A DNA stretch of 64,000 nucleotides from Tragulus kanchil (taxonomy: Eukaryota > Chordata > Mammalia > Artiodactyla > Tragulidae): NCBI GenBank assembly GCA_022376925.1, contig JAIOJX010000003.1:34110874-34174873 (forward strand). The letters are read 5' to 3'. Position numbers and translations under genes: made by a program. This document shows, piece by piece, positions 763-64,000 of this stretch. Positions within the stretch are counted from its first letter, which is position 1, and every line of letters starts with the position of its first letter. The notes under the pieces are model-generated. The model did no database searches, was not told the origin of the DNA, and saw only the letters and a program-made list of their open reading frames with translations.

Positions 763-843
763 TTTTTCTATTCCTTTAAAAAATATACACCAAAACCCAA
801 GCATTTCTCCTGTAAAACAATTCTTAGAAAAGACCTTTCATCA

Positions 844-1199
844 GGGCTTTCCTGGTAGCTCAGTGGTAAAGTGTTCGCCTGCCAATGCAGGGAACATGAA
901 TTTGATCCCTGGTCCAGGAAGATCCCACATGCTGCGGAGGAACTAAGCCTGTGAGCCACAGCTATTGAGCCTGTACTCTAGAGCTTTGGAGCGGCAACTG
1001 TTGGGCCCAAGTGCTGCAGCAACTGAAGCCCGCATGCCCTAGAGTTCAAGTTCCACAAGAGAAGTTACCTCAACAAGAAGCCTGCTCACCTCAACTGGAG
1101 AGTGGCCCGCACTCCCTGCAACTAGAGAAGAGCCTGTGGCAGCAGTGAAAATCCAGAATAGTCAAAAATAAATAAATAATTGCAAATTAAAAAAAAAAA
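844..1199 (+). mobile_element. CHR-2 type SINE, near full length
   Basis: The tRNA-like head begins at CTTTCCTGGTAGCTCAGTGG and has a box-B-like TTTGATCCC. The CHR body (GCAGCAACTGAAGCCCGC, GCAACTAGAGAAG) follows, then a CAAAAATAAATAAATAA tail and poly-A. A short target-site duplication CTTTCATCA is at 835-843 and 1201-1209. Confidence 0.85.
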
Positions 1200-1230
1200 T
1201 CTTTCATCACTTTCATTTATGATGGATTTT

Positions 1231-1251
1231 ATTTAATTTAATAAATTAAAT
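1231..1251. repeat. 21-bp AT-only palindrome
   Basis: Perfect inverted repeat ATTTAATTTA with a one-base centre (A) and TAAATTAAAT, inside an AT-rich run. It recurs in the second D1 copy near 2311-2331. It may be a by-product of low complexity. Confidence 0.7.
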
Positions 1252-1922
1252 ATTTAATTAAATAAATGAAATAAATAGGAGTTTTATTTAATTTTTGAGA
1301 TGAAGAAACAATTGGAGAGACCATATGTGATTGCCTTCACATTAAAAAAAAAAAGAAAGTGCAGTCTACAATACAAAGTCACAAAGTAGAGCTCCTTGGA
1401 ACTCAGAAATAAAGCTAAATAATAGCAGAAAGCAAGTGGGGGAATCTACATTAAAATAGCAATAATAAAAAACCTCCCCAAACTTACCTAAGCACTAGTA
1501 CTTGGGTCTCAAATAGAGCTTGTCATCTCAGATTGCCATCCTCTTTGCCTGCTGGCATGGACGAACCAATGTCAATTTAAGGGGGATCCTTTTCATACGT
1601 GTACTAATCACTGAAAATGACCATCAAGTCTGATATTTCTGAGCTTCAGCATAAGCCTCCCTTTACAGGGCACACCTTTTGAGATGGCAGCCCTTATTTA
1701 TTGCCTTCTGGGTAAGGCGAGCTATCTTGTTCACGTGTGAGAAAACATAATGCATCTTTCACATTTAAAGTGCCCTCTGAAGCTTTCTGTGCAACCTCTC
1801 TCCCTCTTTCTCTGTTACCTCTAAATTTTTCATAAGTTCTTATTTTTTTTTTCTATTCCTTTAAAAATTCCAAAACCCAAGCATTCTCCTGTAAAACAAT
1901 TCTTAGAAAAGACCTTTCATCA

Positions 1923-2279
1923 GGGCTTTCCTGGTAGCTCAGTGGTAAAGTGTTCGCCTGCCAATGCAGGGAACATGAATTTGATCCCTGGTCCAGGAAG
2001 ATCCCACATGCTGCGGAGGAACTAAGCCTGTGAGCCACAGCTATTGAGCCTGTACTCTAGAGCTTTGGAGCGGCAACTGTTGGGCCCAAGTGCTGCAGCA
2101 ACTGAAGCCCGCATGCCCTAGAGTTCAAGTTCCACAAGAGAAGTTACCTCAACAAGAAGCCTGCTCACCTCAACTGGAGAGTGGCCCGCACTCCCTGCAA
2201 CTAGAGAAGAGCCTGTGGCAGCAGTGAAAATCCAGAATAGTCAAAAATAAATAAATAATTGCAAATTAAAAAAAAAAAT
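1923..2279 (+). mobile_element. CHR-2 type SINE (D1 second copy)
   Basis: This is the same insertion as at 844-1199, carried in the second D1 copy. It is not an independent retrotransposition, because the flanks are duplicated too. Confidence 0.85.
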
Positions 2280-2919
2280 CTTTCATCACTTTCATTTATG
2301 ATGGATTTTATTTAATTTAATAAATTAAATATTTAATTAAATAAATGAAATAAATAGGAGTTTTTTTTAAATTTTTTGAGATGAAGAAACAATTGGAGAG
2401 ACCATATGGGATGGCGTTCAGATTAAAAAAAAAGAAAGTGCAGTCTACAATACAAAGTCACAAAGTAGAGCTCCTTGGAACTCAGAAATAAAGCTAAATA
2501 ATAGCAGAAAGCAAGTGGGGGAATCTACATTAAAATAGCAATAATAAAAAACCTCCCCAAACTTACCTAAGCACTAGTACTTGGGTCTCAAATAGAGCTT
2601 GTCATCTCAGATTGCCATCCTCTTTGCCTGCTGGCATGGACGAACCAATGTCAATTTAAGGGGGATCCTTTTCATACGTGTACTAATCACTGAAAATGAC
2701 CATCAAGTCTGATATTTCTGAGCTTCAGCATAAGCCTCCCTTTACAGGGCACACCTTTTGAGATGGCAGCCCTTATTTATTGCCTTCTGGGTAAGGCGAG
2801 CTATCTTGTTCACGTGTGAGAAAACATAATGCATCTTTCACATTTAAAGTGCCCTCTGAAGCTTTCTGCTTCGCAACCTCTCTCCCTCTTTCTCTGTTAC
2901 CTCTAAATTTTTCATACCA

Positions 2920-3886
2920 TCTTGAGCATCTCTCAAAGAATTGCAAATTCTAACTGGGACATGATTAATTTAGCATGTGGCCTCCTTCGATGGAGTGCTC
3001 TGCCATCCGTTCTCCTTACACAGCCTCCTCCTCCTCTTGGCTCTGAACAGGAAAAGCAAATTAAGGCAGAGGCTGGAGTTGTTCAGATGGGCTGCTTGAA
3101 AATGAATTTTTACTGGCAATGCCGCAAAGTCAAAAGTGTGGTGTTGCAAAAGTGAAATTACAACTTATGGTTCACTTTCTTGCAGTTGCAAAGCTCAGCC
3201 ACCCCCTCCCCCTCCCTCAGTTTGTCAAGCGAAGATCTATTATTCTTTATTTAGAGGTGAAAGGCAAAACACAGGTGTTGTTTCTCCTCCTTAAAAGACT
3301 TTCTACCTTGATTTTGTTTGTGTTTCTAACACCATCTTTAGTTCATCAGCTAATGTTTTCTGTGAGGTCACTTCCCTTTCCTATGGAAAGAAGAAGTATA
3401 TTTATTTCCATTGCTGTAATTCTTTTAATAGAAACCAACCCAGCTGGACCCTGAGGTCATTTCCACTGCAATCACAGGTGGCTTCCAGTGGTATTCACTA
3501 AGGAATTCTTCTCCAGAGCATTGTTTAGACGTGGACCCATTTGGCTCTCATCATTTTTATGAAGAAGGACAGTGGACAGTATAAATCTCCTTTTTAGGTG
3601 GCATTTGGAAATCCCACTTGTGTATATTTCCTACAATTTAATTACTTACTTGTTTAAAAATATTTGTGTGTGTGTGTGTATTAAGAGGTGTGATTATCAG
3701 GTATCTAATATATTTAGCAAGTGCCTGATGTGTATAGTTAAGGCACAATCCATGCTCATAATGATGAGGAGGAGGAGAAAGAAGAAGAAACGGAGGAGAA
3801 GGATGGAATGCTGGGTGTTGGAAAATACGACCAAAACAACCTGTTGATAAGACAAAGCTGAGTTTATCTGTATTTCAGTAATGGAG
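2920..3886. other. single-copy type sequence, no gene seen
   Basis: Non-repetitive, moderately AT-rich sequence holding a (TG)n run at about 3664-3679 and a purine-only GGA/GAA tract at about 3764-3806. Open frames of 77-111 codons occur but have no recognisable domain or splice support. The segment repeats at 4024-4990. Confidence 0.5.
3764..3806 (+). repeat. purine (GGA/GAA) tract
   Basis: Runs of AGGAGGAGGAGAAAGAAGAAG type, nearly pure purine on the plus strand. The second D2 copy has it at about 4868-4910. Such tracts can form triplex DNA and are prone to slippage. Confidence 0.7.
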
Positions 3887-5324
3887 AGTGCTTTACTTTT
3901 TCTGGTTTTAGGTAGGTCTTTGAAAGTCCTTTTTGCATGATGGATCTGTTATAGTGCCCTCTGAAGCTTTCTGCTTCGCAACCTCTCTCCTCTTTCTCTG
4001 TTACCTCTAAATTTTTCATACCATCTTGAGCATCTCTCAAAGAATTGCAAATTCTAACTGGGACATGATTAATTTAGCATGTGGCCTCCTTCGATGGAGT
4101 GCTCTGCCATCCGTTCTCCTTACACAGCCTCCTCCTCCTCTTGGCTCTGAACAGGAAAAGCAAATTAAGGCAGAGGCTGGAGTTGTTCAGATGGGCTGCT
4201 TGAAAATGAATTTTTACTGGCAATGCCGCAAAGTCAAAAGTGTGGTGTTGCAAAAGTGAAATTACAACTTATGGTTCACTTTCTTGCAGTTGCAAAGCTC
4301 AGCCACCCCCTCCCCCTCCCTCAGTTTGTCAAGCGAAGATCTATTATTCTTTATTTAGAGGTGAAAGGCAAAACACAGGTGTTGTTTCTCCTCCTTAAAA
4401 GACTTTCTACCTTGATTTTGTTTGTGTTTCTAACACCATCTTTAGTTCATCAGCTAATGTTTTCTGTGAGGTCACTTCCCTTTCCTATGGAAAGAAGAAG
4501 TATATTTATTTCCATTGCTGTAATTCTTTTAATAGAAACCAACCCAGCTGGACCCTGAGGTCATTTCCACTGCAATCACAGGTGGCTTCCAGTGGTATTC
4601 ACTAAGGAATTCTTCTCCAGAGCATTGTTTAGACGTGGACCCATTTGGCTCTCATCATTTTTATGAAGAAGGACAGTGGACAGTATAAATCTCCTTTTTA
4701 GGTGGCATTTGGAAATCCCACTTGTGTATATTTCCTACAATTTAATTACTTACTTGTTTAAAAATATTTGTGTGTGTGTGTGTATTAAGAGGTGTGATTA
4801 TCAGGTATCTAATATATTTAGCAAGTGCCTGATGTGTATAGTTAAGGCACAATCCATGCTCATAATGATGAGGAGGAGGAGAAAGAAGAAGAAACGGAGG
4901 AGAAGGATGGAATGCTGGGTGTTGGAAAATACGACCAAAACAACCTGTTGATAAGACAAAGCTGAGTTTATCTGTATTTCAGTAATGGAGACTGCTACTT
5001 TTTCAGAGTCCTTACAATGAATGGAAATCTGGTTTTAGGTAGGTCTTTGAAAGTTGCAGGGTCATGAAGGTTGATGGAGTTGGAAGATAAGGATATGTGG
5101 AGTGCAGGAGGGGAATGTACATGGAATTTACATAGAGACTGTTATATAATAGTGTAAGACTGTAGAAGTCAAGAACTTTGAAGGACCTTGGAGAGTAAGC
5201 AGTCATTGGATTGAAGAGTTGAACATTTTGATTTCATCCTAAGTGAGATTTTCATAAAGTTTCTGGAACCAGCCATAAAGCTATTTGCAAACTTCATCTT
5301 CTTGGGCAATTTTTTAAAAAAATT

Positions 5325-6265: not shown

Positions 6266-6369
6266 GAGTTAGGTGTGAAATGGTATTTTATCACAGTTTT
6301 ATTTTCCTGAGAAATTTTACATATATCCACTTCCAGATAAATTGCTTTTTGTATCATTTACCCATTCTT

Positions 6370-6760
6370 TGGTTACTAGGTCATTGTCTTTTAAAAAATG
6401 AAATGTAGGGTTTTATTGTACCGTCTGAGCAAAATTTCATACTGGTTTTATGGATTCTGAATATCTTCTCTCTGTGTCTGGTTTGCATTAACGTCACTTT
6501 TTATATACTGTACAGCACTTTCTGGTCCAGAAGTTTTAATTTAAATGTATACAAATTTATTAATTATTTTTCCTTCATGGTGAGTGCTTTTTGGTGCCTT
6601 GCTTAGGAAAATTCTCTATGTAGTTGGATAGATATGTTCTCTACATTCTTCTAAAAGTTTTAAAGTTTTGTTCTTGAATTTATTTTCTTTGAGGTACCAT
6701 GGTTGATTTTATGTGTGGCATAAGGTGGACATTTGACTTTAGTTTCCTCAGGCATTCATC
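6370..6760 (-). mobile_element. old L1 (L1M-like) ORF2/3' fragment
   Basis: The pattern CCAGAAGTTTTAATTTAAATG, then TTCATGGTGAGTGCTTTTTG, then TTCTAAAAGTTTTAAAGTTT and a GTGTGGCATAAGGTGGACAT block is the familiar antisense signature of the ORF2 end of old L1 lines. It is too decayed for any protein. Confidence 0.65.
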
Positions 6761-7536
6761 TGTCAGTTGAATACTTTAGGGAGACCATCTGCAAATCCCT
6801 GCAGGTTCTTTGTGTGGCTCACTCCTGTCTTTTGCGTTGTCCTTCTAATTCTAGCCTCTTGGTCTCTCTGAATTCTCAGCTCAAGTTGGTTACTGGGCTA
6901 TGCCTGAGTTCCTCCTCTCATACACTCTCAAGCCAGTAAGCTGCGTAATCACAGGAGTCATCTCATCTCTCAGGAGTAACTATTCCTTGTCGTCTGATGT
7001 TGAAAACCTTTGTTTCACTTATTTTGTACATTTTTGATTTGTTTTAGATAGGAGGGTGAATCTGGTCCTTATTATTCCATCTTGCCTGGAAATGGAAGTC
7101 TGGAGAAGGCAGTGAGAGTTGAACTAGTTACTATTTGAAGCTGAAGACAGTCAACTTGGAAGAGCTAATTTTATGGATCCACAATCTGAAAGTGAGCTCA
7201 CAATGATTCGGTACAATTAACTGGGGAAATAGGGACTTGGAGAAGGGAAGTGACTTTCTATGTGTGATCTACACACCAAACCGTGGCTACTGTCCAGGAA
7301 ATCAGATGGTGACTTGGTTGCATTTTCGCTGAGCTCTGGCATTACATTTGGAAAGATGAGGTAAAAAGGACTTTTACCTTTTCAGTGCTCATGGCACCTT
7401 GGAGGGAAGGCTGTGGTTTGGGCTAGGGTCCGAGTTAGGTGTGAAATGGTATTTTATCACAGTTTTATTTTCCTGAGAAATTTTACATATATCCACTTCC
7501 AGATAAATTGCTTTTTGTATCATTTACCCATTCTTT

Positions 7537-7930
7537 GGTTACTAGGTCATTGTCTTTTAAAAAATGAAATGTAGGGTTTTATTGTACCGTCTGAGCAAAA
7601 TTTCATACTGGTTTTATGGATTCTGAATATCTTCTCTCTGTGTCTGGTTTGCATTAACGTCACTTTTTATATACTGTACAGCACTTTCTGGTCCAGAAGT
7701 TTTAATTTAAATGTATACAAATTTATTAATTATTTTTCCTTCATGGTGAGTGCTTTTTGGTGCCTTGCTTAGGAAAATTCTCTATGTAGTTGGATAGATA
7801 TGTTCTCTACATTCTTCTAAAAGTTTTAAAGTTTTGTTCTTGAATTTATTTTCTTTGAGGTACCATGGTTGATTTTTATGTGTGGCATAAGGTGGACATT
7901 TGACTTTAGTTTCCTCAGGCATTCATCTGT
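7537..7930 (-). mobile_element. old L1 fragment (D3 second copy)
   Basis: Same fragment as at 6370-6760, carried within the second D3 copy. Confidence 0.65.
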
Positions 7931-8617
7931 CAGTTGAATACTTTAGGGAGACCATCTGCAAATCCCTGCAGGTTCTTTGTGTGGCTCACTCCTGTCTTTT
8001 GCGTTGTCCTTCTAATTCTAGCCTCTTGGTCTCTCTGAATTCTCAGCTCAAGTTGGTTACTGGGCTATGCCTGAGTTCCTCCTCTCATACACTCTCAAGC
8101 CAGTAAGCTGCGTAATCACAGGAGTCATCTCATCTCTCAGGAGTAACTATTCCTTGTCGTCTGATGTTGAAAACCTTTGTTTCACTTATTTTGTACATTT
8201 TTGATTTGTTTTAGATAGGAGGGTGAATCTGGTCCTTATTATTCCATCTTGCCTGGAAATGGAAGTCTGGAGAAGGCAGTGAGAGTTGAACTAGTTACTA
8301 TTTGAAGCTGAAGACAGTCAACTTGGAAGAGCTAATTTTATGGATCCACAATCTGAAAGTGAGCTCACAATGATTCGGTACAATTAACTGGGGAAATAGG
8401 GACTTGGAGAAGGGAAGTGACTTTCTATGTGTGATCTACACACCAAACCGTGGCTACTGTCCAGGAAATCAGATGGTGACTTGGTTGCATTTTCGCTGAG
8501 CTCTGGCATTACATTTGGAAAGATGAGGTAAAAAGGACTTTTTTTTTTACCTTTTCAGTGCTCATGGCACCTTGGAGGGAAGGCTGTGGTTTGGGCTAGG
8601 GTAAAACAGTGTGAAGT

Positions 8618-9546: not shown

Positions 9547-9788
9547 GTTCTTTTCTGATAGTCCAGTGGATACAGAGTCCACCTTGCAGCACAAGGGGCA
9601 CTGGTTCGATCCCTGGCCTGGGAAGATCCCACGTGCAGCAGAGCAGATGGATGGGTTTGGCCAATTGCGAGCCAGCCTGGAGCACATGCTCCTAGAGCCT
9701 GAGCTCTGAAGTGAGAGAGGCCACTTCAATAGGAGGTCCACACATGCCAAAGAATACAAAAGATGGATGAAAATAAATATAAATAAAA
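9547..9788 (+). mobile_element. tailed CHR-type SINE
   Basis: Diverged member of the tailed CHR family: GGTTCGATCCCTGGCCTGGG box-B region, GAGCACATGCTCCTAGAGCC, GGAGGTCCACACATGCCAAAG, GATGGATGAAAATAAAT. Confidence 0.8.
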
Positions 9789-9835
9789 GAGGCGTGATGG
9801 GGGGAAAAACTAGAAAAAAAAAGATTAAAAAAAAA

Positions 9836-9925
9836 AAGGTTTTTTCCTGTATAGGTCATTACAGAATATTAAATAGAATTCCCTGGGCTATATTGCAGGT
9901 TCTTATACAAACCAAGGTATTTCTT
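9836..9925 (-). mobile_element. L1 3' UTR fragment
   Basis: GTATAGGTCATTACAGAATATT and AATTCCCTGGGCTATATTGCAGGT correspond to the antisense ruminant L1 3' UTR, as also at 25630-25945. The D4 copy is at about 10950-11038. Confidence 0.65.
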
Positions 9926-10052
9926 ACTGGCATTTACTACTGTGCCTGCTCTTAATCTCTTTCCTTCAATATGGTGGTAGGACTACTGGAAGATTTGTGG
10001 AATTTCTGAGTGAATTAAGATGTACATATGTCTTACTTACTTATTTTTTTTA

Positions 10053-10318
10053 GGAGGGGAGCCACTTCTATTGGTCTTTCATTTATCTATTTTCATCCAT
10101 CTTTGTTCTTTGGCCTGTGTGGGCCTCCCATCACAGTGGCCTCTGCTGTTGCAAAGCACTGGCTCTGGGGGCATGCGCTCCAGAGCTCTGGCTCAGTAAT
10201 TGGACACATTGGTCTAGTCACTCCGCGGCACGTGGGATCTTCCCAGGCCAGGAATCGAACTGGCGCCCCTTGCACTGCAAGGCAGTGTCCTTACCCACTG
10301 GATCACCAGGGAAGCCCT
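10053..10318 (-). mobile_element. tailed CHR-type SINE, minus strand
   Basis: Reads outward from the complement of the head (CACCAGGGAAGCCC at the right). The body has GGCCTGTGTGGGCCTCCCAT and GGGCATGCGCTCCAGAGCTC. A weak TGTCTTA repeat flanks it (10029-10035 and 10319-10325). Confidence 0.85.
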
Positions 10319-10769
10319 GTCTTATGTTTTGAGGCAACAGGCTAGGCAGAATTAAGTCATGTGTTAGGTATTCTTTGGGATATCCTATGTGACTTTGGAA
10401 AAGCAGGGAGAAATAGAGCTATCTATCTAGTTAGCTATCAAGGACTAATTTATACCTGTAAATTGTGAAAAGAAATGCCCTTGGATCTGTGTAGGTTTCT
10501 ATTGTATAAGAGTTATCAGCCAGCATGCACTAACAATTCAGAATGCAAACCACCTAGACAGGACTGCCATCTTTGCAAGTGTTACCAGGTAGAAAGAGTC
10601 TACTTCATGAGTTTTATCCAAAGCATGAGGACTGCTGTTTGAAGTTTATTCTTTAGGTAAGTCTTTGATTTGGGATAATGCTAATATATATTCTTCATAA
10701 AGAAAGTTTTAGTTCACAAACTTGTGCCACATCTATTATTTGGTTCATTGTACCTCTGAAAACTAGGTA

Positions 10770-10866
10770 GGCATTGTCCCTCCTACTTTACAGACTGAAA
10801 AACTGAGGCTCAAAAACATGAAGCGCCTTGCTGAAGACCAGGTAGGTTATAAGTGGAGAAGGCAAT
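10770..10866 (-). mobile_element. MIR element (first of three copies)
   Basis: The antisense MIR core CTTTACAGACTGAAAAACTGAGGCTC is followed by a decayed GAAGCGCCTTGCTGAAGACC. It sits in the three-fold segment: the complete form is at 11884-11998 and a third copy at 12997-13111. One ancient insertion, not three. Confidence 0.75.
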
Positions 10867-11165
10867 TGATAAGCCACTTATAGTATTTGTTTCTAAATAA
10901 AAAAAATAAAAAAGAGGCGTGATGGGGAAAACTAGAAAAAGATTAAAAAAGTTTTTTTCGTGTATAGGTCATTACAGAATATTAAATAGAATTCCCTGGG
11001 CTATATTGCAGGTTCTTATACAAACCAAGGTATTTCTTACTGGCATTTACTACTGTGCCTGCTCTTAATCTCTTTCCTTCAATATGGTGGTAGGACTACT
11101 GGAAGATTTGTGGAATTTCTGAGTGAATTAAGATGTACATATGTCTTACTTACTTATTTTTTTTA

Positions 11166-11430
11166 GGAGGGGAGCCACTTCTATTGGTCTTTCATTTATC
11201 TATTTTCATCCATCTTTGTTCTTTGGCCTGTGTGGGCCTCCCATCACAGTGGCCTCTGCTGTTGCAAAGCACTGGCTCTGGGGGCATGCGCTCCAGAGCT
11301 CTGGCTCAGTAATTGGACACATTGGTCTAGTCACTCCGCGGCACGTGGGATCTTCCCAGGCCAGGAATCGAACTGGCGCCCCTTGCACTGCAAGGCAGTG
11401 TCCTTACCCACTGGATCACCAGGGAAGCCC
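11166..11430 (-). mobile_element. tailed CHR-type SINE (D4 second copy)
   Basis: Identical to the element at 10053-10318, within the second D4 copy. Confidence 0.85.
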
Positions 11431-11883
11431 TGTCTTATGTTTTGAGGCAACAGGCTAGGCAGAATTAAGTCATGTGTTAGGTATTCTTTGGGATATCCTA
11501 TGTGACTTTGGAAAAGCAGGGAGAAATAGAGCTATCTATCTAGTTAGCTATCAAGGACTAATTTATACCTGTAAATTGTGAAAAGAAATGCCCTTGGATC
11601 TGTGTAGGTTTCTATTGTATAAGAGTTATCAGCCAGCATGCACTAACAATTCAGAATGCAAACCACCTAGACAGGACTGCCATCTTTGCAAGTGTTACCA
11701 GGTAGAAAGAGTCTACTTCATGAGTTTTATCCAAAGCATGAGGACTGCTGTTTGAAGTTTATTCTTTAGGTAAGTCTTTGATTTGGGATAATGCTAATAT
11801 ATATTCTTCATAAAGAAAGTTTTAGTTCACAAACTTGTGCCACATCTATTATTTGGTTCATTGTACCTCTGAAAACTAGGTAG

Positions 11884-11998
11884 GCATTGTCCCTCCTACT
11901 TTACAGACTGAAAAACTGAGGCTCAAAAACATGAAGCGCCTTGCTGAAGACCAGGTAGGTTATAAGTGGAGAAGGCAAGATCTGAATTAAGACCTTTT
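11884..11998 (-). mobile_element. MIR element (complete form)
   Basis: CTGAGGCTCAAAAACATGAAG and AAGTGGAGAAGGCAAGATCTG follow the MIR consensus in antisense. Repeated at 12997-13111 by D5. Confidence 0.8.
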
Positions 11999-12507
11999 GA
12001 CTTATAGTACTTTGTCTTGCTAGAACACTACAGTTTCTTTCTATACGTTTCTGCAAGAGAAAATATCAACACCTAGTGATTCTGATTTAACTTTAAACCT
12101 TTATTTGTGCAAACATATAATTTTAAAAGAACATTTCAGCACATTATTAAGTACACAACACTAGTAACTTCAATAAAAATTTGGCATTTTTGAAGAAATG
12201 TCATTTGTACGTCTCTGCAGTAGACATTACCCTGTTGATAAAGAACAGTTTATTTTACTTATTTATTTGATCATGGTGATGAAGTTGGCCTTGACCCACC
12301 CATGGCCTAGTATATTTCACCCCACAAAATTGCTGGGACACATCCCTGCATTGTAACAGCTTTTGTTTCAATCAGGGAAATCAGGAAAGGATTGTGAAGG
12401 AGGCTTTTTGGAGCTGAGTTTTGCCTATGGATAAGATTTCAAGCAATCTCCGTATGGGGCTGGAGACAAGTGGGGTGAAGGGCATTCTAGAAAGAAAAAA
12501 GGCTTTG

Positions 12508-12748
12508 TAAAAATTTATTTATTTTCAGTGGCACTGGGTCTTTGTTGCTGTGTGGGCTTTCTCTGGTTGTGTTGAGTGGAGGCTACTCTCTAGTGTGGGC
12601 TTCTCATTCTGGTACCTCCTCCTGTTGTGGAGCACAGACTCTAGGTGTTTGGGCTTCAGTACCTGTAGCACACAGGTTCAGTAGTTGAGGTGTCCAGGCT
12701 CTAGGACTCAGAGTAACCAGTAATTCCAGGGCACGGGCTTTAGTTTGT
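12508..12748 (-). mobile_element. CHR-2 SINE, cut by the D5 junction
   Basis: Antisense CHR body (TTTATTTATTTTCAGTGGC, GGGCTTTCTCTGGTTGTG, GTGGAGCACAGACTCTAGG) ending abruptly at 12748 before the head. The missing part is present in the later copies at 13621 and 14701. Confidence 0.85.
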
Positions 12749-13620
12749 TTAAACCTAACAATTCAGAATGCAAACCACCTAGACAGGACTGCCATCTTTG
12801 CAAGTGTTACCAGGTAGAAAGAGTCTACTTCATGAGTTTTATCCAAAGCATGAGGACTGCTGTTTGAAGTTTATTCTTTAGGTAAGTCTTTGATTTGGGA
12901 TAATGCTAATATATATTCTTCATAAAGAAAGTTTTAGTTCACAAACTTGTGCCACATCTATTATTTGGTTCATTGTACCTCTGAAAACTAGGTAGGCATT
13001 GTCCCTCCTACTTTACAGACTGAAAAACTGAGGCTCAAAAACATGAAGCGCCTTGCTGAAGACCAGGTAGGTTATAAGTGGAGAAGGCAAGATCTGAATT
13101 AAGACCTTTTGACTTATAGTACTTTGTCTTGCTAGAACACTACAGTTTCTTTCTATACGTTTCTGCAAGAGAAAATATCAACACCTAGTGATTCTGATTT
13201 AACTTTAAACCTTTATTTGTGCAAACATATAATTTTAAAAGAACATTTCAGCACATTATTAAGTACACAACACTAGTAACTTCAATAAAAATTTGGCATT
13301 TTTGAAGAAATGTCATTTGTACGTCTCTGCAGTAGACATTACCCTGTTGATAAAGAACAGTTTATTTTACTTATTTATTTGATCATGGTGATGAAGTTGG
13401 CCTTGACCCACCCATGGCCTAGTATATTTCACCCCACAAAATTGCTGGGACACATCCCTGCATTGTAACAGCTTTTGTTTCAATCAGGGAAATCAGGAAA
13501 GGATTGTGAAGGAGGCTTTTTGGAGCTGAGTTTTGCCTATGGATAAGATTTCAAGCAATCTCCGTATGGGGCTGGAGACAAGTGGGGTGAAGGGCATTCT
13601 AGAAAGAAAAAAGGCTTTGT

Positions 13621-13916
13621 AAAAATTTATTTATTTTCAGTGGCACTGGGTCTTTGTTGCTGTGTGGGCTTTCTCTGGTTGTGTTGAGTGGAGGCTACTC
13701 TCTAGTGTGGGCTTCTCATTCTGGTACCTCCTCCTGTTGTGGAGCACAGACTCTAGGTGTTTGGGCTTCAGTACCTGTAGCACACAGGTTCAGTAGTTGA
13801 GGTGTCCAGGCTCTAGGACTCAGAGTAACCAGTAATTCCAGGGCACGGGCTTTAGTTGTCTTATGGCATGCATTGGCAGGCAGATTCTTACCCACCGTAC
13901 CACCAGGGTAGTCCAA
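13621..13916 (-). mobile_element. CHR-2 SINE, full length, minus strand
   Basis: Complete antisense CHR element from TTTATTTATTTTCAGTGGC to the head complement ACCACCAGGGTAGTCC. Open frames on it (13716-14080) are SINE readings. Confidence 0.85.
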
Positions 13917-14304
13917 GAGAAATGTTTTACAAACACCGTGAAGTGGGCAGATGTTGAAATAATTGCTGATGATCTGATATCACTCTGGCAGAGGGAGATA
14001 ATAAAGGTGTAGAGCAAGAAAGAAACAACACAGAGAAATGGACGCAGGTCATGGAGACGATGAAGCGCCTTGATGGTCATACAGACCCAGTAAGGGATAT
14101 GTCAAGATTCAGAGCCAAGGGGAGCTGGAACTGAGCTAGGTGCAAGGCAGGCTGCTCGAATTTACAAAAAAGGATGAGAGATGGTCTTTGGGTGAAGCTA
14201 AGGAATGAGGAGGAGGACAGCTGCAGAGAAACCAACGCTTAGGAGGAGATCCAATCAGATCCACATTTCAGAAAAGGTGATAGGAACAGAAGAAAAGATG
14301 GACA
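13917..14304. other. single-copy type sequence, no gene seen
   Basis: No repeat or gene recognised; mixed composition with a GA-rich patch. It repeats exactly at 14997-15384. Confidence 0.4.
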
Positions 14305-14566
14305 GGGGACTTTCCTGGTGGTCCAGTGGGTAAGGACACCGCCTTGCAGTGCAAGGGGCGCCAGTACAATCCCTGGCCTGGGAGGACCCTACGGGCGGCA
14401 GAGCAGCTGGACCGATGTGTCCAACTACCAAGCCGGAGCTCTGGAGCGCATGCGCCCAGAGCCGGCGCTCTGCAACGAGAGAGGCCACTGCGATGGGAGG
14501 CCCACACAGGCCAAAGAACAAAGATGGATGAAAATAGACAAATGGCCAATAGAAGTGGCCAAAAGA
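14305..14566 (+). mobile_element. tailed CHR-type SINE
   Basis: Young-looking copy rich in CpG: CAAGGGGCGCCAG, GGAGCGCATGCGCCCAGAGC, CAACGAGAGAGGCC, GGGAGGCCCACACAGGCC, GATGGATGAAAATAG, CCAATAGAAGTGGCC. Translations on both strands produce several frames of 60-104 codons that are all SINE-derived. Confidence 0.9.
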
Positions 14567-15850: not shown

Positions 15851-15877
15851 TTTTAAAATAATAATAATAATAAAAAA

Positions 15878-45560: not shown

Positions 45561-45561
45561 T

Positions 45562-52135: not shown

Positions 52136-52724
52136 TAAAAAATAATAAGCTTAACCCAGGTTTTAAATAGTATTAGTCACAAAATTATATACTAATAGGC
52201 TAATTCATTATGCATATGAAATAAAAACATAATGATGAAACTATAACTGTAAAGTTTTTGATATCACCAAAAGAACTTGAGCCCCTATCTGTTGCTTAAT
52301 GATGGGGAGATACTTAACATTTCTGAACTGTACCTTAAAAATAAAATTAACTGTACCTTCAAAAAAAAACCAGGACTTGTCTAATTACTCTTACAAAGGA
52401 ATGATTGGCGTTGAAGATGCTTCTCATCTTGTCAGGTATAGGAACTTGTTCCCCAGCACTACAAGGGCACACAGGTGGAAATAGGTCCTTCCTGCAGGGA
52501 CTTGTGTGAAGCCAGGGTATGCATAGGAGAGCAAGAAGTCAAGGAATGCTCTTTTGTTTTCCTGTGAGCAGATCAGCACATTTCTCAGCTCAGAGGAGCC
52601 ACGGAGAGAAGGGGCTCAGAAAGGCATTTCTCTGAACAGGAAGACAACTCTGGGATATTGTTCTAGGAGAACTGTGTTTCTTACAAACAAACACAGGGAT
52701 CTTTTGAATCGAGATTACTACTTG

Positions 52725-52940
52725 ACTGACACTAGGTATAAACAGATAACTAATAAGACCCTACTGTATCATACAGAGATCTCTACTCAGAGCTCTGTGC
52801 TGACCTAAATGGGAAGGAAATCCAAAAATGAGGGGGTATATGTATCTGTGTAGCTAATTCACTTTGCTGTACTTCAGAAACTAACACAACATTGTAAAGA
52901 AACTGTACTCCAACAAAAATTAACTTAAAAAAATGAATAA
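52725..52940 (+). mobile_element. ruminant L1 3' end
   Basis: GATAACTAATAAGACCCTACTG, GGGAAGGAAATCCAAAAATG, AATTCACTTTGCTGTACTTC and ACACAACATTGTAAAG show the L1 3' UTR in sense. The D19 copy is at about 53871-54086. Confidence 0.85.
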
Positions 52941-53424
52941 AAGAAGAGAAACTCAATCGATTCCTCTCAGTCTATAGAAAACAAATACATGCAGGACAGG
53001 TATCCCGAGTGAGATATCTGCAAGGAGTGGACAAAAGTCATTGTTGGTTTTAACGATCCCATCCAAAGAATCTAAATGAGGGTGGCATCTCTCTTAACTC
53101 CCTGGAGAGCACTGCACATGTTCCTATGTGGTTAGGCCGGCCACCCCAAGTAGCCCAGCGGTGAAGCTGCTTTTCTGGCGATGTCTGTCATGTCTGATCC
53201 ATAACCTCCATCATGGCTGTTTTTTTTTTTTTAAATCTCTTATGATAGCACAGCACATTTGAGTATGCTTAAAGTATTCAAGTGGCGCTACCGGCTATAA
53301 TTAAGTTCTTTCAGCCTTTCCATTACAAATTCTTCTTTCCAGGGTTTAATATCTCAGAGACTTCTAATCCCACTGGACCAAGCTCAGTATAGAAATTGTC
53401 AGCAGGAATGCAAATTTTCTGCTC
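52941..53424. other. single-copy type sequence, possibly conserved non-coding
   Basis: About 480 bases without repeats, holding AGTGGCGCTACCGGC and TATAATTAAG motifs; present in full or part three times through D19 and D20. Conservation cannot be judged here. Confidence 0.35.
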
Positions 53425-54579
53425 GAGCCCCTATCTGTTGCTTAATGATGGGGAGATACTTAACATTTCTGAACTGTACCTTAAAAATAAAATTAACTGT
53501 ACCTTCAAAAAAAAACCAGGACTTGTCTAATTACTCTTACAAAGGAATGATTGGCGTTGAAGATGCTTCTCATCTTGTCAGGTATAGGAACTTGTTCCCC
53601 AGCACTACAAGGGCACACAGGTGGAAATAGGTCCTTCCTGCAGGGACTTGTGTGAAGCCAGGGTATGCATAGGAGAGCAAGAAGTCAAGGAATGCTCTTT
53701 TGTTTTCCTGTGAGCAGATCAGCACATTTCTCAGCTCAGAGGAGCCACGGAGAGAAGGGGCTCAGAAAGGCATTTCTCTGAACAGGAAGACAACTCTGGG
53801 ATATTGTTCTAGGAGAACTGTGTTTCTTACAAACAAACACAGGGATCTTTTGAATCGAGATTACTACTTGACTGACACTAGGTATAAACAGATAACTAAT
53901 AAGACCCTACTGTATCATACAGAGATCTCTACTCAGAGCTCTGTGCTGACCTAAATGGGAAGGAAATCCAAAAATGAGGGGGTATATGTATCTGTGTAGC
54001 TAATTCACTTTGCTGTACTTCAGAAACTAACACAACATTGTAAAGAAACTGTACTCCAACAAAAATTAACTTAAAAAAATGAATAAAAGAAGAGAAACTC
54101 AATCGATTCCTCTCAGTCTATAGAAAACAAATACATGCAGGACAGGTATCCCGAGTGAGATATCTGCAAGGAGTGGACAAAAGTCATTGTTGGTTTTAAC
54201 GATCCCATCCAAAGAATCTAAATGAGGGTGGCATCTCTCTTAACTCCCTGGAGAGCACTGCACATGTTCCTATGTGGTTAGGCCGGCCACCCCAAGTAGC
54301 CCAGCGGTGAAGCTGCTTTTCTGGCGATGTCTGTCATGTCTGATCCATAACCTCCATCATGGCTGTTTTTTTTTTTTTTTTTTAATCTCTTATGATAGCA
54401 CAGCACATTTGAGTATGCTTAAAGTATTCAAGTGGCGCTACCGGCTATAATTAAGTTCTTTCAGCCTTTCCATTACAAATTCTTCTTTCCAGGGTTTAAT
54501 ATCTCAGAGACTTCTAATCCCACTGGACCAAGCTCAGTATAGAAATTGTCAGCAGGAATGCAAATTTTTCTGCTCACCC

Positions 54580-55077
54580 CGAAATATTTCCAATTAGACA
54601 AATGTGTTTTTTTCCCCCTTTCTCATTACAGCAAAGGTATAAGGTTTCAGGCTCTTTTGAAAGGCCAAAAGAAAAAAGTAACCTAAGCATAAAATCAGAA
54701 AGAAATATACAAGAATGCAAAATTTGTCTCATTTGGGAGGGGTGTGTGTGTGGAGAAATATAGAATAGTTCCAGTATCAAAAATTTTTTGCCTTCTGTTT
54801 TTAAAATCAAACTCAAGATTTAGCTGTGAAATAAATGGAAAGCATATTGTTTGTGGTGTTGGACTTTTTTTTTTTGAAGTGCAATGTTTTTTAAGTCTGT
54901 GAAAATTTAAAATGATTGATTTGAAAGATACTGATTATTTCTAATTGGTTGATCTGAATATATTCATCTGATGTAATCTACAATTGAAGTGTTTCTTTTC
55001 CTTTCTACTCTGTCTTAAAGTTAATTGATTAGAAATCATTTGTGGCATGTAACAAAGCCACTAATGCAAAATTTTTG
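54580..55077. other. single-copy type sequence, no gene seen
   Basis: AT-rich. The 80-codon minus frame (54574-54816) is unassigned. Repeated at about 55780-56278. Confidence 0.4.
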
Positions 55078-55400
55078 TATTTTTGGGGGGCAAAAACTAT
55101 ACAAAATTTACCATCTTAAGCATTTGTAAATGTACAGTTCAGTAGTGTTAAGTATATTCACATTCTTGTACAACTAATCTCCAAAACTTTTCATCGTGTA
55201 AAACCAAAGTTTAATGCCCATTAAACACCTTTCCATTTCCCCTTCCCCTCAGCCTCTGGCAACCACCATTCTACTTTCTGTTTCTATGAATTTGCCTGCT
55301 CCTCGATACCTTACATAAATGGAATCATGTAGTGTTCATCTTGGGACAATCTGTAACTCGCATGTTTCAATAGCATAAAAGACGATAAGGTCATGCATGT
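55078..55400 (-). mobile_element. old L1M 3' region fragment
   Basis: AAATTTACCATCTTAAGCATT, GTACAGTTCAGTAGTGTTAAG, CCTCTGGCAACCACCATTC and ATAAATGGAATCATGTAGTG are the classic antisense L1M 3' sequence. The D20 copy continues to about 56625. Confidence 0.85.
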
Positions 55401-56278
55401 TTTAACGATCCCATCCAAAGAATCTAAATGAGGTGGCATCTCTCTTAACTCCTGGAGAGCACTGCACATGTTCCTATGTGGTTAGGCGCCACCACAAGTA
55501 GCCCAGCGGTGAAGCTGCTTTTCTGGCGATGTCTGTCATGTCTGATCCATAACCTCCATCATGGCTGTTTTTTTTTTTTTTTTTAAATCTCTTATGATAG
55601 CACAGCACATTTGAGTATGCTTAAAGTATTCAAGTGGCGCTACCGGCTATAATTAAGTTCTTTCAGCCTTTCCATTACAAATTCTTCTTTCCAGGGTTTA
55701 ATATCTCAGAGACTTCTAATCCCACTGGACCAAGCTCAGTATAGAAATTGTCAGCAGGAATGCAAATTTTTCTGCTCACCCCGAAATATTTCCAATTAGA
55801 CAAATGTGTTTTTTTCCCCCTTTCTCATTACAGCAAAGGTATAAGGTTTCAGGCTCTTTTGAAAGGCCAAAAGAAAAAAGTAACCTAAGCATAAAATCAG
55901 AAAGAAATATACAAGAATGCAAAATTTGTCTCATTTGGGAGGGGTGTGTGTGTGGAGAAATATAGAATAGTTCCAGTATCAAAAATTTTTTGCCTTCTGT
56001 TTTTAAAATCAAACTCAAGATTTAGCTGTGAAATAAATGGAAAGCATATTGTTTGTGGTGTTGGACTTTTTTTTTTTGAAGTGCAATGTTTTTTAAGTCT
56101 GTGAAAATTTAAAATGATTGATTTGAAAGATACTGATTATTTCTAATTGGTTGATCTGAATATATTCATCTGATGTAATCTACAATTGAAGTGTTTCTTT
56201 TCCTTTCTACTCTGTCTTAAAGTTAATTGATTAGAAATCATTTGTGGCATGTAACAAAGCCACTAATGCAAAATTTTT

Positions 56279-56625
56279 GTATTTTTGGGGGGCAAAAACT
56301 ATACAAAATTTACCATCTTAAGCATTTGTAAATGTACAGTTCAGTAGTGTTAAGTATATTCACATTCTTGTACAACTAATCTCCAAAACTTTTCATCGTG
56401 TAAAACCAAAGTTTAATGCCCATTAAACACCTTTCCATTTCCCCTTCCCCTCAGCCTCTGGCAACCACCATTCTACTTTCTGTTTCTATGAATTTGCCTG
56501 CTCCTCGATACCTTACATAAATGGAATCATGTAGTGTTCATCTTGGGACAATCTGTAACTCGCATGTTTCAATAGCATAAAAGACGATAAGGTCATGCAT
56601 GTTTTAACATGTATCAGAACTTTTG
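56279..56625 (-). mobile_element. old L1M fragment (D20 second copy)
   Basis: Same fragment as at 55078, continuing through TTTTAACATGTATCAGAAC, which is L1M sequence missing at the end of copy 1. Confidence 0.85.
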
Positions 56626-58566: not shown

Positions 58567-58796
58567 ACAAGGATGAGTACCCATACTCTTCTCTGCATTT
58601 ACCAAACACACCACCACTCTTCCTCCCCCAGGCTAGAATGAGGAAAGGGGCAAGAAAAAGCTAGAAAGGTGCTAATATTTTAGCTTTGCAGTAAGAAAGC
58701 AAGACATCAACAAGAGAAAAGCTTCCCCTCTTATCCCTCTGCCAAAAAGTTGCTCTTTTGCCAAAAGTATGGATGGCATCCCTGACCCAAGGGTCA

Positions 58797-58885
58797 TGAG
58801 TTGAATACTCTGGGAGAGACAGGGAAGCCTGGCATGCTGTAGTCTGTGGGCTGCAAAGAGTGGGACACAAATGACTGACTAAACA
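58797..58885 (+). mobile_element. BovA/BovB 3' end fragment
   Basis: GGGAAGCCTGGCATGCTGTAG, GGCTGCAAAGAGTGGGAC and ACAAATGACTGACTAAAC are the sense 3' end of a BovA-type element. The D21 copy is at about 59924-60012. Confidence 0.8.
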
Positions 58886-59692
58886 ACCACAATATGTGGT
58901 GTTGCCTTTCAGTTATTTCATCTTCAACTTCTGTTTTGTCATATATTTGGGGCACTGAGGCGCTCTCATATTTTCAGTAGAGATTTTCAGTGTGACTAGC
59001 CTCCACACCCTCTCTTTAATTATTCTCATCTTTATTTGTCCAGTTTGTAATGTCTGATGTTGCTTCGTTTTTGCTTACAGATGGACGCCAGTTCTCCAAG
59101 CAGAATGCTGACGAGTGTAAAACCAGGGGCTCTTGAGTCCTTAATGCTATTGCCATTCTCTGCTTTGGTCCCTTTCAGACTTTCTGGCATTCAGAGTAGG
59201 GAGAGTCTGTCAGGTGCCATGTGGATGGGCTTGCATCTTCGCATAATGAATGTGGAAGCCATGGCCTGTTTACCTGGCCTCCCCGCTGCAGTGTGGTGAA
59301 TTACTAGGGGCTATTTGAATTAGCCTTTATATTTGTTTTTGGGAGCCATGCCTTCATCTTTCTGTCCCCTCTCTATACCATTGCCCCTGTGAGGCTTATG
59401 GAAGCTGCAGGGACTTCAAAATGAAGCAAATGGCTCTCCAAGGAAGGTTAGAACCACTCGGAGTCTCTGAACACCTAGAGTTTAATTCTCACTCTATAAT
59501 GAGATGAACATAAGATAGACATGTATGAAATGCTTTGTTCCCTTGGGTAAAGTCAGATTGGTGACAGCTAGGTATGCTGAGAGTCAAGTTTCATAACATG
59601 GATTGATTTCTAAAGAAATTTAGAGATCATCAGTGGTTATAGTGCTATGAATATGTAAGAGTAGCAAGAGAAGGGCATAAATGCTAATTGCA
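58886..59692. other. single-copy type sequence, no gene seen
   Basis: The 80-codon plus frame at 59057-59299 follows a CTTACAG acceptor-like site (59076-59082) but shows no known domain. Repeated by D21 at about 60012-60803. Confidence 0.35.
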
Positions 59693-60937
59693 TACAAGGA
59701 TGAGTACCCATACTCTTCTCTGCATTTACCAAACACACCACCACTCTTCCTCCCCCAGGCTAGAATGAGGAAAGGGGCAAGAAAAAGCTAGAAAGGTGCT
59801 AATATTTTAGCTTTGCAGTAAGAAAGCAAGACATCAACAAGAGAAAAGCTTCCCCTCTTATCCCTCTGCCAAAAAGTTGCTCTTTTGCCAAAAGTATGGA
59901 TGGCATCCCTGACCCAAGGGTCATGAGTTGAATACTCTGGGAGAGACAGGGAAGCCTGGCATGCTGTAGTCTGTGGGCTGCAAAGAGTGGGACACAAATG
60001 ACTGACTAAACAACCACAATATGTGGTGTTGCCTTTCAGTTATTTCATCTTCAACTTCTGTTTTGTCATATATTTGGGGCACTGAGGCGCTCTCATATTT
60101 TCAGTAGAGATTTTCAGTGTGACTAGCCTCCACACCCTCTCTTTAATTATTCTCATCTTTATTTGTCCAGTTTGTAATGTCTGATGTTGCTTCGTTTTTG
60201 CTTACAGATGGACGCCAGTTCTCCAAGCAGAATGCTGACGAGTGTAAAACCAGGGGCTCTTGAGTCCTTAATGCTATTGCCATTCTCTGCTTTGGTCCCT
60301 TTCAGACTTTCTGGCATTCAGAGTAGGGAGAGTCTGTCAGGTGCCATGTGGATGGGCTTGCATCTTCGCATAATGAATGTGGAAGCCATGGCCTGTTTAC
60401 CTGGCCTCCCCGCTGCAGTGTGGTGAATTACTAGGGGCTATTTGAATTAGGCTTTATATTTGTTTTTGGGTGCCATGCCTTCATCTTTCTGTCCCCTCTC
60501 TATACCATTGCCCCTGTGAGGCTTATGGAAGCTGCAGGGACTTCAAAATGAAGCAAATGGCTCTCCAAGGAAGGTTAGAACCACTCGGAGTCTCTGAACA
60601 CCTAGAGTTTAATTCTCACTCTATAATGAGATGAACATAAGATAGACATGTATGAAATGCTTTGTTCCCTTGGGTAAAGTCAGATTGGTGACAGCTAGGT
60701 ATGCTGAGAGTCAAGTTTCATAACATGGATTGATTTCTAAAGAAATTTAGAGATCATCAGTGGTTATAGTGCTATGAATATGTAAGAGTAGCAAGAGAAG
60801 GGATTCTAATATAAATGAGAAGCAGCACCATCAACGCTAATTTGCTTCCTCTTTTATTCTTGGCATGACAAAGTGGCTGAGGAGAGCTTTTACTGTTGTG
60901 GCTGTCTTTCAGATAGAAGGTAGTTTCAACATCATGC

Positions 60938-62091: not shown

Positions 62092-62451
62092 TTAAAATTG
62101 ATCCCAGAACAAGTACTGCAATCATAATCCCAAGTAATCCCATTACTTTATCACACGGAGTTTCTGTCAGAAATCGTCTCAAAACCGAGAGTGATGATTC
62201 ATCATCTTCTACAAGTAAGAGAAAAAACAGCAAGAAGGTGGAAAGGAAACTTCTTCCTCCTAAACTCATCCAATCCATTGATTGCCATCTTTGCAGCTTT
62301 AATGAACACAACCCAGAGCGTCAATTTCCTGATTCCCATCTTCAAGGTGACTGTCAATGTCAAGGAGCGCTTTCAGGCTTCCCTTGGTCACCTGCAGTTG
62401 AATGTCAGTCCACCAGTGGGAGCGTCCTTTCGTTTCACTGCTTTGTGAACT

Positions 62452-62735
62452 CTCTGCGGCAGCGCTTGCAGAAGTCGCTGCACCGGGCCGGAGCCGTCGG
62501 GTCAAGGATCTCCTCTGCAAGCAACCGACAGAAGCACGGCTCGTAGCCCCGCTTGCTGTGGACTCTGCCTCGGTCAGCCCGTTTCTGGCGGCCACGCCCT
62601 CGGATGGCGTCACTTCTCGGGGGCGTGGCTTTATGGGAAGACGCAATTACGCACTAGGAAGGCGGGGAAGGCGACGTAGGAACCTTTTAAAGAAGGGTGT
62701 AGAAGGTGACGCGGCTTCCCGGTTGTTTAAGAAGG
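62452..62735. promoter_or_regulatory. CpG-rich promoter-like segment, gene unidentified
   Basis: About 27 CpGs in roughly 285 bases, far above the rest of the window outside young SINEs. An inverted pair of GC/CACCC boxes (GCCACGCCC 62591-62599, GGGCGTGGC 62621-62629) flanks a CRE-like TGGCGTCA (62605-62612). On the minus side a pyrimidine-rich acceptor-like TTTTTTCTCTTACTTGTAG lies near 62213, followed by a frame EDDESSLSVLRRF with a hydrophobic GLLGIMIAVLVLG stretch. That may be a short exon of an unknown transcript, but no complete ORF can be assembled. On the plus side the segment runs into a Bov-tA element. Confidence 0.4.
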
Positions 62736-62736
62736 T

Positions 62737-62865
62737 AAAGAATTTGCCTGCAGGGTGGAGGGCGCGGCCACCCACTCCAGTATTCTTGCCTGGTGAGTCC
62801 CCATGAACAGAGGAGCCTGGTCGGCTGCAGCCCATGGCGTTGCAGAGTTGGCACGACTAAGCGTA
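62737..62865 (+). mobile_element. Bov-tA SINE, partial
   Basis: GGTAAAGAATTTGCCTGCAG, CACCCACTCCAGTATTCTTG, CATGAACAGAGGAGCCTGG, GCAGCCCATGGCGTTGCAG and GGCACGACTAAGC are Bov-tA with its first bases merged into the flank. The D22 copy is at about 63820-63945. Confidence 0.85.
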
Positions 62866-63084
62866 GGACAGCCTCGGAGATGCTGAAGATAAGAGAGAAA
62901 AGATGGAAAGAGGGAGAAAGCACCACAGTTGAGCCTGAGCAGCAGAACTGAGTCTGAGAGTGTACTGCCGACTAAGGACGGATTTGATGTGGTAAGAGCA
63001 CTGTTACAGCGGTTCTCTAGGAAAGAATGCGCAACTGGTTTGCCGTGCCTTGTTCCAGTGGACCTTTTTAAAAAAATTTTTATG

Positions 63085-63265
63085 TTTTGGCCTTTTTTAC
63101 TTGATTTTTTGTTGATTTATTTCCATCTATCTTCATTCTTTGGCCTGTGTGGGCCTCCCATCACAGTGGCCTCTTTTGTTTCAGAGCGCAGACTCTGGGC
63201 GCATGGGCACCAGAGCGCTGGCTCGTGGTTTGGGCACACAGGTCTAGGTGCCTTACTGCATGTTG
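63085..63265 (-). mobile_element. tailed CHR-type SINE, headless
   Basis: GGCCTTTTTTACTTGATTTT, GGCCTGTGTGGGCCTCCCAT, CGCATGGGCACCAGAGCGC and GGGCACACAGGTCTAGGTGCC are the antisense body. The tRNA-like head is missing before the D22 junction. Confidence 0.8.
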
Positions 63266-63535
63266 CATGTTCCTGGAAATGGAAACATCATCTTCTACAA
63301 GTAAGAGAAAACAGCAAGAAGGTGGAAAGGAAACTTCTTCCTCCTAAACTCATCCAATCCATTGATTGCCATCTTTGCAGCTTTAATGAACACAACCCAG
63401 AGCGTCAATTTCCTGATTCCCATCTTCAAGGTGACTGTCAATGTCAAGGAGCGCTTTCAGGCTTCCCTTGGTCACCTGCAGTTGAATGTCAGTCCACCAG
63501 TGGGAGCGTCCTTTCGTTTCACTGCTTTGTGAACT

Positions 63536-63819
63536 CTCTGCGGCAGCGCTTGCAGAAGTCGCTGCACCGGGCCGGAGCCGTCGGGTCAAGGATCTCCTCT
63601 GCAAGCAACCGACAGAAGCACGGCTCGTAGCCCCGCTTGCTGTGGACTCTGCCTCGGTCAGCCCGTTTCTGGCGGCCACGCCCTCGGATGGCGTCACTTC
63701 TCGGGGGCGTGGCTTTATGGGAAGACGCAATTACGCACTAGGAAGGCGGGGAAGGCGACGTAGGAACCTTTTAAAGAAGGGTGTAGAAGGTGACGCGGCT
63801 TCCCGGTTGTTTAAGAAGG
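63536..63819. promoter_or_regulatory. CpG-rich promoter-like segment (D22 second copy)
   Basis: Exact repeat of 62452-62735, with the GC-box pair at 63675-63683 and 63705-63713. Since D22 is probably an artefact, only one such promoter is expected in the real genome. Confidence 0.35.
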
Positions 63820-64000
63820 TAAAGAATTTGCCTGCAGGGTGGAGGCGGGGCCACCCACTCCAGTATTCTTGCCTGGTGAGTCCCCATGAACAGAGGAGCC
63901 TGGTCGGCTGCAGCCCATGGCGTTGCAGAGTTGGCACGACTAAGCGTAGGACAGCCTCGGAGATGCTGAAGATAAGAGAGAAAAGATGGAAAGAGGGAGA

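Follow-up and report, generated by a model that had tools for sequence, protein, structure and literature searches.

Unmerged consensus tiles as the very probable source of 22 direct duplications of about 1.1 kb in a Tragulus kanchil contig

The window, i.e., the whole stretch of 64,000 nucleotides analysed here, is almost certainly composed of consensus tiles that were called independently and joined without merging, its duplications being very probably absent from the animal. Self-comparison of the window revealed 22 direct, near-adjacent pairs of copies between positions 759 and 64,000, which bears out the 22 near-tandem direct repeats reported in the initial annotation. The pairs, based on self-comparison and BLAST and recorded with no strand (.), are the following:

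759..2916, pair 1: copies 759-1834 and 1844-2916
2844..5004, pair 2: copies 2844-3902 and 3949-5004
6266..8602, pair 3: copies 6266-7429 and 7432-8602
9771..12015, pair 4: copies 9771-10890 and 10895-12015
11643..13857, pair 5: copies 11643-12745 and 12755-13857, identical over 1,103 bases
13490..15656, pair 6: copies 13490-14572 and 14570-15656
15478..17676, pair 7: copies 15478-16543 and 16600-17676
18140..20317, pair 8: copies 18140-19232 and 19234-20317
19982..22309, pair 9: copies 19982-21125 and 21166-22309, identical over 1,144 bases
22075..24248, pair 10: copies 22075-23166 and 23157-24248
26443..28624, pair 11: copies 26443-27524 and 27542-28624
29835..32032, pair 12: copies 29835-30942 and 30928-32032
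34558..36719, pair 13: copies 34558-35631 and 35649-36719
37695..39880, pair 14: copies 37695-38781 and 38792-39880
40339..42580, pair 15: copies 40339-41452 and 41464-42580
42762..44978, pair 16: copies 42762-43866 and 43872-44978
44860..47053, pair 17: copies 44860-45935 and 45975-47053
46981..49289, pair 18: copies 46981-48128 and 48133-49289
52279..54575, pair 19: copies 52279-53424 and 53425-54575
54193..56608, pair 20: copies 54193-55406 and 55399-56608
58567..60802, pair 21: copies 58567-59675 and 59694-60802
62200..64000, pair 22: copies 62200-62917 (visible part) and 63286-64000, cut by the window end

The copies are 1,059-1,214 bases long (median 1,103, 21 complete pairs) and their aligned starts are offset by 1,080-1,206 bases (median 1,111, 22 pairs), the exact-match diagonals of the near-adjacent pairs lying at 1,079-1,202. 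One and the same assembly holds both copies in all 22 cases, with a BLAST identity of 97.4-100%, and each pair presumably corresponds to one locus in the animal. In ten of the 22 pairs the copies share one uninterrupted identical stretch of 1,003-1,144 bases, and chance is therefore excluded. Neighbouring blocks overlap, by 73-383 bases, in 9 of 20 neighbouring pairs; where they do, the same tiling gives rise to third copies, offset by 2,192-2,352. The earlier statement that no shorter or longer offsets occur thus holds for the pairs and fails for these third copies. All pairs are direct, with no inverted counterpart (none of 98 minus-strand self-matches combined at least 150 bases with at least 97% identity), and this uniform orientation, together with the narrow block size, favours unmerged tiles. 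Dispersed repeat copies of about 75-89% identity, unrelated to the pairs, are also found in the window, among the 60 listed of the 89 remaining BLAST rows.

The summed offsets amount to 24,601 redundant bases and leave 39,399 of 64,000, while the tiles, measured from seam to seam, span 1,821-5,294 bases for the 20 tiles that the first 21 seams delimit; these values agree with the redundancy of about 24 of 64 kb, the tiles of about 1.8-5.3 kb and the real locus of about 39-40 kb that had been proposed initially. According to the proposed mechanism, about 23 consensus tiles, called independently in a long-read assembly, would have been concatenated to give the window; successive tiles would share one unit of fixed size, about 1.0-1.2 kb, and 22 seams would have been left unmerged, so that every overlap was written twice. 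The consensus would be poorer at the tile ends, presumably from fewer or truncated reads, and the resulting loss of bases may account for deletion-biased block ends and for ragged filler at some seams. The locus itself would measure about 39.4 kb and be free of these duplications; both the merging failure and its cause are what we infer. Real tandem duplications of fixed length, recurring recently in the lineage by re-replication or template switching, would also produce copies that are direct, adjacent and nearly identical; however, 22 young events of nearly equal size would be needed within 64 kb, and the data on indels and seams given below make such an origin exceedingly improbable.

Differences between the copies are directed towards the block ends. 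In the pairwise copy alignments, 61 of 73 indel events lie within 130 columns of a block end, a zone width that was picked after viewing the indel histogram, and indels reach a density of 10.9 per kb in these end zones, compared with 0.65 per kb in the middle of the blocks. Their direction is fixed as well: in 56 of the 61 end-zone indels the seam-side copy is the one missing the base, a bias that is seen both by event (binomial p 6e-12) and by block end (21 ends for, 2 against and 1 tied; p 7e-5). An even spread of differences is expected of a biological tandem duplication, and replication would not favour seam-side deletions at both ends of a block. Mismatches in the middle zones occur at 1.2 per kb (22 in 18,469 columns), a value included in the range of mammalian heterozygosity; alleles could be among these 22, and the tiles could in places be drawn from different haplotypes. 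This rate would also suit a haplotype (heterotype) false duplication, in which the assembler sets two alleles side by side; however, a fixed size is not expected of allelic duplications, pairs 5 and 9 show no difference over their whole length, and the end-directed deletions would be left unexplained, so that this origin is very improbable.

Where three tiles cover one locus, a three-way comparison could be made (9 segments, 2,160 columns; the counts are columns, not events). The odd copy out was the tile end in 55 columns, the tile start in 28 and the tile interior in 8; the segment of pairs 4/5 contributes 42 of the 55 tile-end columns, and without it the counts become 13, 28 and 8, respectively. 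At tile starts the odd columns are substitutions in 21 of 28 cases, not deletions. The interior copy is the odd one in 5 columns of segment 6/7, 2 of segment 17/18 and 1 of segment 19/20, while segments 5/6 and 8/9 exhibit no differences among the three copies. As indicated by the indel direction and by the distribution of odd columns, the differences between the copies reflect sequencing or consensus errors, not allelic variation.

Seven seams carry at least 17 filler bases, which at three of them, and perhaps at two more, resemble the far flank with stretches missing. The 46-base filler of pair 2 agrees with the bases that follow copy 2 if a skip of 25 bases is allowed; at pair 7, part of the 56-base filler is similar to what precedes copy 1, several deletions apart; and the last 27 of the 39 bases at pair 17 (25 identical) occur before copy 1, the next 34 being missing; each of the three ranks 1 of 21. 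Weaker likeness is seen at pair 21 (18 bases; sequence after copy 2, 26-base skip, rank 2 of 21 with a tied score) and at pair 11 (17 bases, similar to those preceding copy 1; rank 3 of 21). The fillers of pair 9 (40 bases, rank 12 of 21) and pair 13 (17 bases, rank 18 of 21) show no match to their own flanks, which counts against this origin. When compared with shuffled flanks, 5 of the 11 fillers of at least 9 bases, i.e., those of pairs 2, 7, 11, 17 and 21, exceed 3 SD. Replication would not put a decayed far flank into a seam; the end-directed indels, the three-way pattern and the seam filler are marks of consensus tiles joined unmerged, and the unmerged overlaps of about 1.1 kb suggested by the initial annotation find support in the position and direction of the indels, in the comparison of three tiles and in the filler of three seams.

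The closest known phenomenon is the homotype false duplication, a VGP term: in the available excerpts of Ko et al. 2022 (PMC9516828) it likewise designates copies of a single locus that were left under-collapsed and are set apart by sequencing or consensus errors, some of them lying on the same scaffold. Unlike the cases in those excerpts, the copies described here have a near-fixed size of about 1.1 kb and follow one another through the window with no N between them; moreover, the published classification, as excerpted, rests on read depth and k-mers, whereas the window was judged from the finished sequence alone (PMC9516828).

As for the program behind the tiling, wtdbg/wtdbg2 is tentatively put forward as its fairly probable source, the repeated unit being most likely, again tentatively, a four-bin node. 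Such a node, which we take to be 1,024 bases long, is proposed as the unit duplicated in the window, and would give a tentative name to the "processing parameter" that the initial annotation had recognised in the lower limit near 1.08 kb. Adjacent wtdbg/wtdbg2 layout units share one node, with an expected overlap of about 1,024 bases if that node size is right, on a 256-base grid; adjacent nodes overlap by one bin at most, 256 by default. However, wtdbg2 is expected to merge the node shared by adjacent units, whereas the window retains 22 unmerged seams within 64 kb. The layout units and the wtpoa-cns consensus were reportedly described by Ruan and Li in 2020. Copy lengths exceed the assumed 1,024 bases by 35-190, which would be plausible for reads with net deletions; the largest of the nine block overlaps is 383 and the four largest are 336-383, near 256 plus roughly the block-length excess (our own correction).

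With the period preset, the block-to-block advances fall near multiples of 256 by three mutually dependent measures (p 0.0004 for block starts, 0.0005 for centres and 0.006 for ends), and the four smallest advances by start are 735-768, about 3 bins. A scan of periods 200-350 weakens the value of 256 (start p 0.0017, best 262; centre 0.013, best 260; end 0.40, best 256), and off-grid advances exist, e.g., 908 and 909, equal to 3.55 bins. The 256 phase is absent from the seam-to-seam tile lengths (p 0.90), a result that speaks against the program and leaves the case for tiling unaffected. Excerpts of published reports give wtdbg2 bins of 256 bases (PMC11831799, PMC9902641) and contigs laid out as overlapping read sequences, followed by wtpoa-cns (PMC12037172). 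A wtdbg2 assembly of the mule deer has the ordinary size of 2.6 Gb, as stated in an excerpt of PMC9650288; unmerged seams are therefore not the rule for wtdbg2. Structural errors listed for HG002 numbered 2,226 in a Nanopore assembly by wtdbg2, compared with 481 (Flye), 1,432 (Canu) and 2,527 (Shasta), counts that have no particular bearing on unmerged seams (PMC8590762). In the titles and abstract openings of the matches listed for wtdbg2 with false, artificial, homotype or tandem duplication, a description of the artefact was not found, which is no claim that it is unreported.

The same unmerged tiles could come from another pipeline, in which contigs or consensus chunks overlapping by about 1 kb were joined by a scaffolder, a gap filler or a chunked polisher, an origin of sizeable but minor probability. 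It differs from the main claim in the program only. The evidence of the indels, the three-way comparison and the filler is independent of the program, and same-scaffold false duplications with gaps between copies, as well as incorrect gap filling, appear in the excerpts of Ko et al. (PMC9516828). On the other hand, the blocks vary little in size, have a suggestive 256-base phase and overlap their neighbours by no more than 383, which points to units of fixed size placed on a grid, and the window contains no N bases.

The content of the window is doubled along with the tiles. Rfam gave three matches at the gathering score (one U6, two tRNA) and ARAGORN called four tRNAs, of which two coincide with those of Rfam; the tRNA calls represent two loci, each doubled by pairs 7 and 14. 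Ruminants carry tRNA-like SINEs, and the tRNA-Cys pair probably marks SINEs; the remaining pair is tRNA-Trp. A CpG-island-like stretch is present twice, at 62.3-63.0 kb and 63.4-63.9 kb. Ten of the 60 listed ORFs of at least 100 aa were scanned: they revealed no Pfam family at E up to 0.01, and no coding exon across a seam was found among these ten. A 30-base pattern of the window had 0 matches in viral contigs and 0 in genome contigs, and an 801-base stretch had no match among plasmids.

Thus the feature is very probably an ordinary assembly artefact, without biological significance. About 38% of the window (24,601 of 64,000) is probably spurious, including the second CpG-island-like copy, and counting genes, repeats or copy numbers on sequence of this kind would give wrong results; the test for seam-directed deletions can indicate such tiling without reads. 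Somewhat short of an even chance, in our judgement, is the broader proposal that unmerged nodes of a fuzzy Bruijn graph give rise to a class of false tandem duplications of about 1.1 kb, for whose recognition the block length, the 256-base phase and the seam-directed deletions in finished sequence would suffice. If this is true, such false duplication may extend over entire contigs in a public assembly of a ruminant, and false exon and regulatory duplications would then arise there.

Comparing the window with itself, by exact 40-mer diagonals and by BLAST, recovers the 22 same-sized duplications of the initial annotation as direct, near-adjacent repeat pairs spanning position 759 to the window end. 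Offsets between aligned starts are 1,080-1,206 bases (median 1,111; 22 pairs), copy lengths 1,059-1,214 (median 1,103; 21 complete pairs, pair 22 being cut by the window end) and BLAST identities 97.4-100%; the copies are identical across 1,103 bases in pair 5 and 1,144 in pair 9. Of the 98 inverted self-matches of at least 150 bases in the window, none has an identity of 97% or more. The single offset class originally proposed holds for the pairs, but not for the third copies, seen at offsets of 2,192-2,352 wherever successive blocks overlap. The offsets total 24,601 bases and leave 39,399, in agreement with the annotated 24 kb of redundancy and real locus of about 39-40 kb. Judging from the sequence, the 22 pairs are best read as a false duplication through unmerged consensus tiles, i.e., independently called pieces running from seam to seam (the junctions between copies); the annotation's reading is upheld, with small corrections such as the third copies. 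Homotype false duplication (Ko et al. 2022, PMC9516828) is of the same kind, among which the form seen in the window is unusually regular.

When every pair was aligned globally (22 pairs, 24,059 columns), the two copies differed by 49 mismatches (19 transitions, 30 transversions), 22 of which fall in the block middle, and by 73 indel events, of which 33 lie at homopolymers. Counted in 5% bins, indels are U-shaped along the block: the first tenth holds 28 and the last tenth 30. End zones were set at 130 columns after the indel histogram had been seen; they hold 61 of the 73 events in 5,590 columns, and pair 22 has no right end zone, its later columns being assigned to the middle. The seam-side copy lacks the base in 56 of these 61 events: copy 2 is short in 26/30 at left block ends, and copy 1 in 30/31 at right ends. 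Scored per block end, seam-side loss gives 21 for, 2 against and 1 tie (p 7e-5); scored in bases, 109/116. The 12 events of the block middle have extra bases in copy 1 (4) or copy 2 (8). A real tandem duplication offers nothing to cause such loss in both copies, whereas an independently called consensus would fray at tile ends and drop bases next to the seam in either copy.

Neighbouring blocks overlap by 73-383 bases in 9 of 20 cases, so that three tiles cover one locus there, and the end of one tile could be compared with the interior of the next and the start of a third (2,160 aligned columns; columns were counted, not events). The odd one out was the tile end in 55 columns (40 missing bases, 15 substitutions), the tile start in 28 (5 missing, 2 extra, 21 substitutions) and the interior in 8 (4 extra, 4 substitutions); in one column all three tiles differed. 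The overlap of pairs 4 and 5 alone supplies 42 of the 55 tile-end columns, and leaving it out gives 13, 28 and 8. The overlap 6/7 shows no trend (end 4, start 6, interior 5), and 17/18 opposes it (0, 1 and 2). In 19/20 a single column is odd, an interior one, and in 5/6 and 8/9 the three tiles agree throughout.

Filler of at least 17 bases lies between the copies in 7 of the 21 complete pairs. It was compared with the 200 bases on each outer side, the same flanks of 20 other seams serving as control. Its own flanks ranked 1/21 for pairs 2, 7 and 17, 2/21 with a tied score for pair 21, and 3/21 for pair 11; the fillers of pairs 9 (21126-21165, rank 12/21) and 13 (35632-35648, rank 18/21) matched neither flank. 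With shuffled near flanks as the reference, 11 fillers of at least 9 bases were scored and five exceeded 3 SD, namely those of pairs 2, 7, 11, 17 and 21. The first 24 bases of the pair 2 filler recur 25 bases past the end of copy 2; the last 27 of the pair 17 filler are found upstream of copy 1 (25 identical), and the 34 bases that follow this match before copy 1 are absent from the filler. In these pairs the filler is the tile's continuation minus some stretches.

A wtdbg2 node spans 1,024 bases in four bins, neighbouring nodes can share 256 bases, and wtpoa-cns joins units across a shared node. This program would predict blocks of about 1,024 bases and advances close to a multiple of 256, with the smallest at about 768. 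Blocks exceed 1,024 by 35-190 bases. For start-to-start advances (n=20), the mean cosine at 256 was reached by 0.04% of jittered sets, and by 0.05% and 0.6% when taken by centre and by end; the smallest advances are 735, 748, 748 and 768 by start and 725-800 by centre. When periods of 200-350 were scanned, p was 0.0017 by start (best 262), 0.013 by centre (best 260) and 0.40 by end (best 256). Off-grid advances exist, such as 908 and 909, and seam-to-seam lengths have no 256-base phase. On balance, wtdbg/wtdbg2 is tentatively the more likely program. wtdbg2 handles reads as 256-base bins (PMC11831799, PMC9902641), and its contig layout consists of overlapping read sequences, with consensus by wtpoa-cns (PMC12037172). 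Either wtdbg or wtdbg2 was applied to mule deer (PMC9650288) and sika deer (PMC10372904), which makes the same choice plausible here; the mule deer assembly is given an ordinary size, 2.6 Gb (PMC9650288), so such a failure would be local or data-set specific. Neither deer assembly is proposed as the source of the window.

The window also contains the following elements:
5749-5784, GT dinucleotide run, perfect, 18 units
15720-15793 and 16840-16913, tRNA-Trp (cca), ARAGORN call and 35-bit Rfam tRNA match
28689-28793, minus strand, U6 snRNA, full-length match, 80.2 bits, model 1-105
62058-62090, AC dinucleotide run, perfect, 16.5 units
62301-63000 and 63401-63900, CpG-island-like stretch, 500-base windows

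Repeat translations look like ruminant SINEs, of which the tRNA-Cys-like calls inside such repeats would be a mark; both are in keeping with a ruminant origin of the window. The U6 match falls outside the doubled blocks and probably belongs among the numerous U6 copies or pseudogenes of mammals. The tRNA-Trp is a single locus doubled by pair 7. The CpG-island-like windows have a GC of 0.57-0.59 and a CpG observed/expected ratio of 0.75-0.84, versus 0.22 across 1-62000; the stretch is written twice because of pair 22, and it may hold a promoter.
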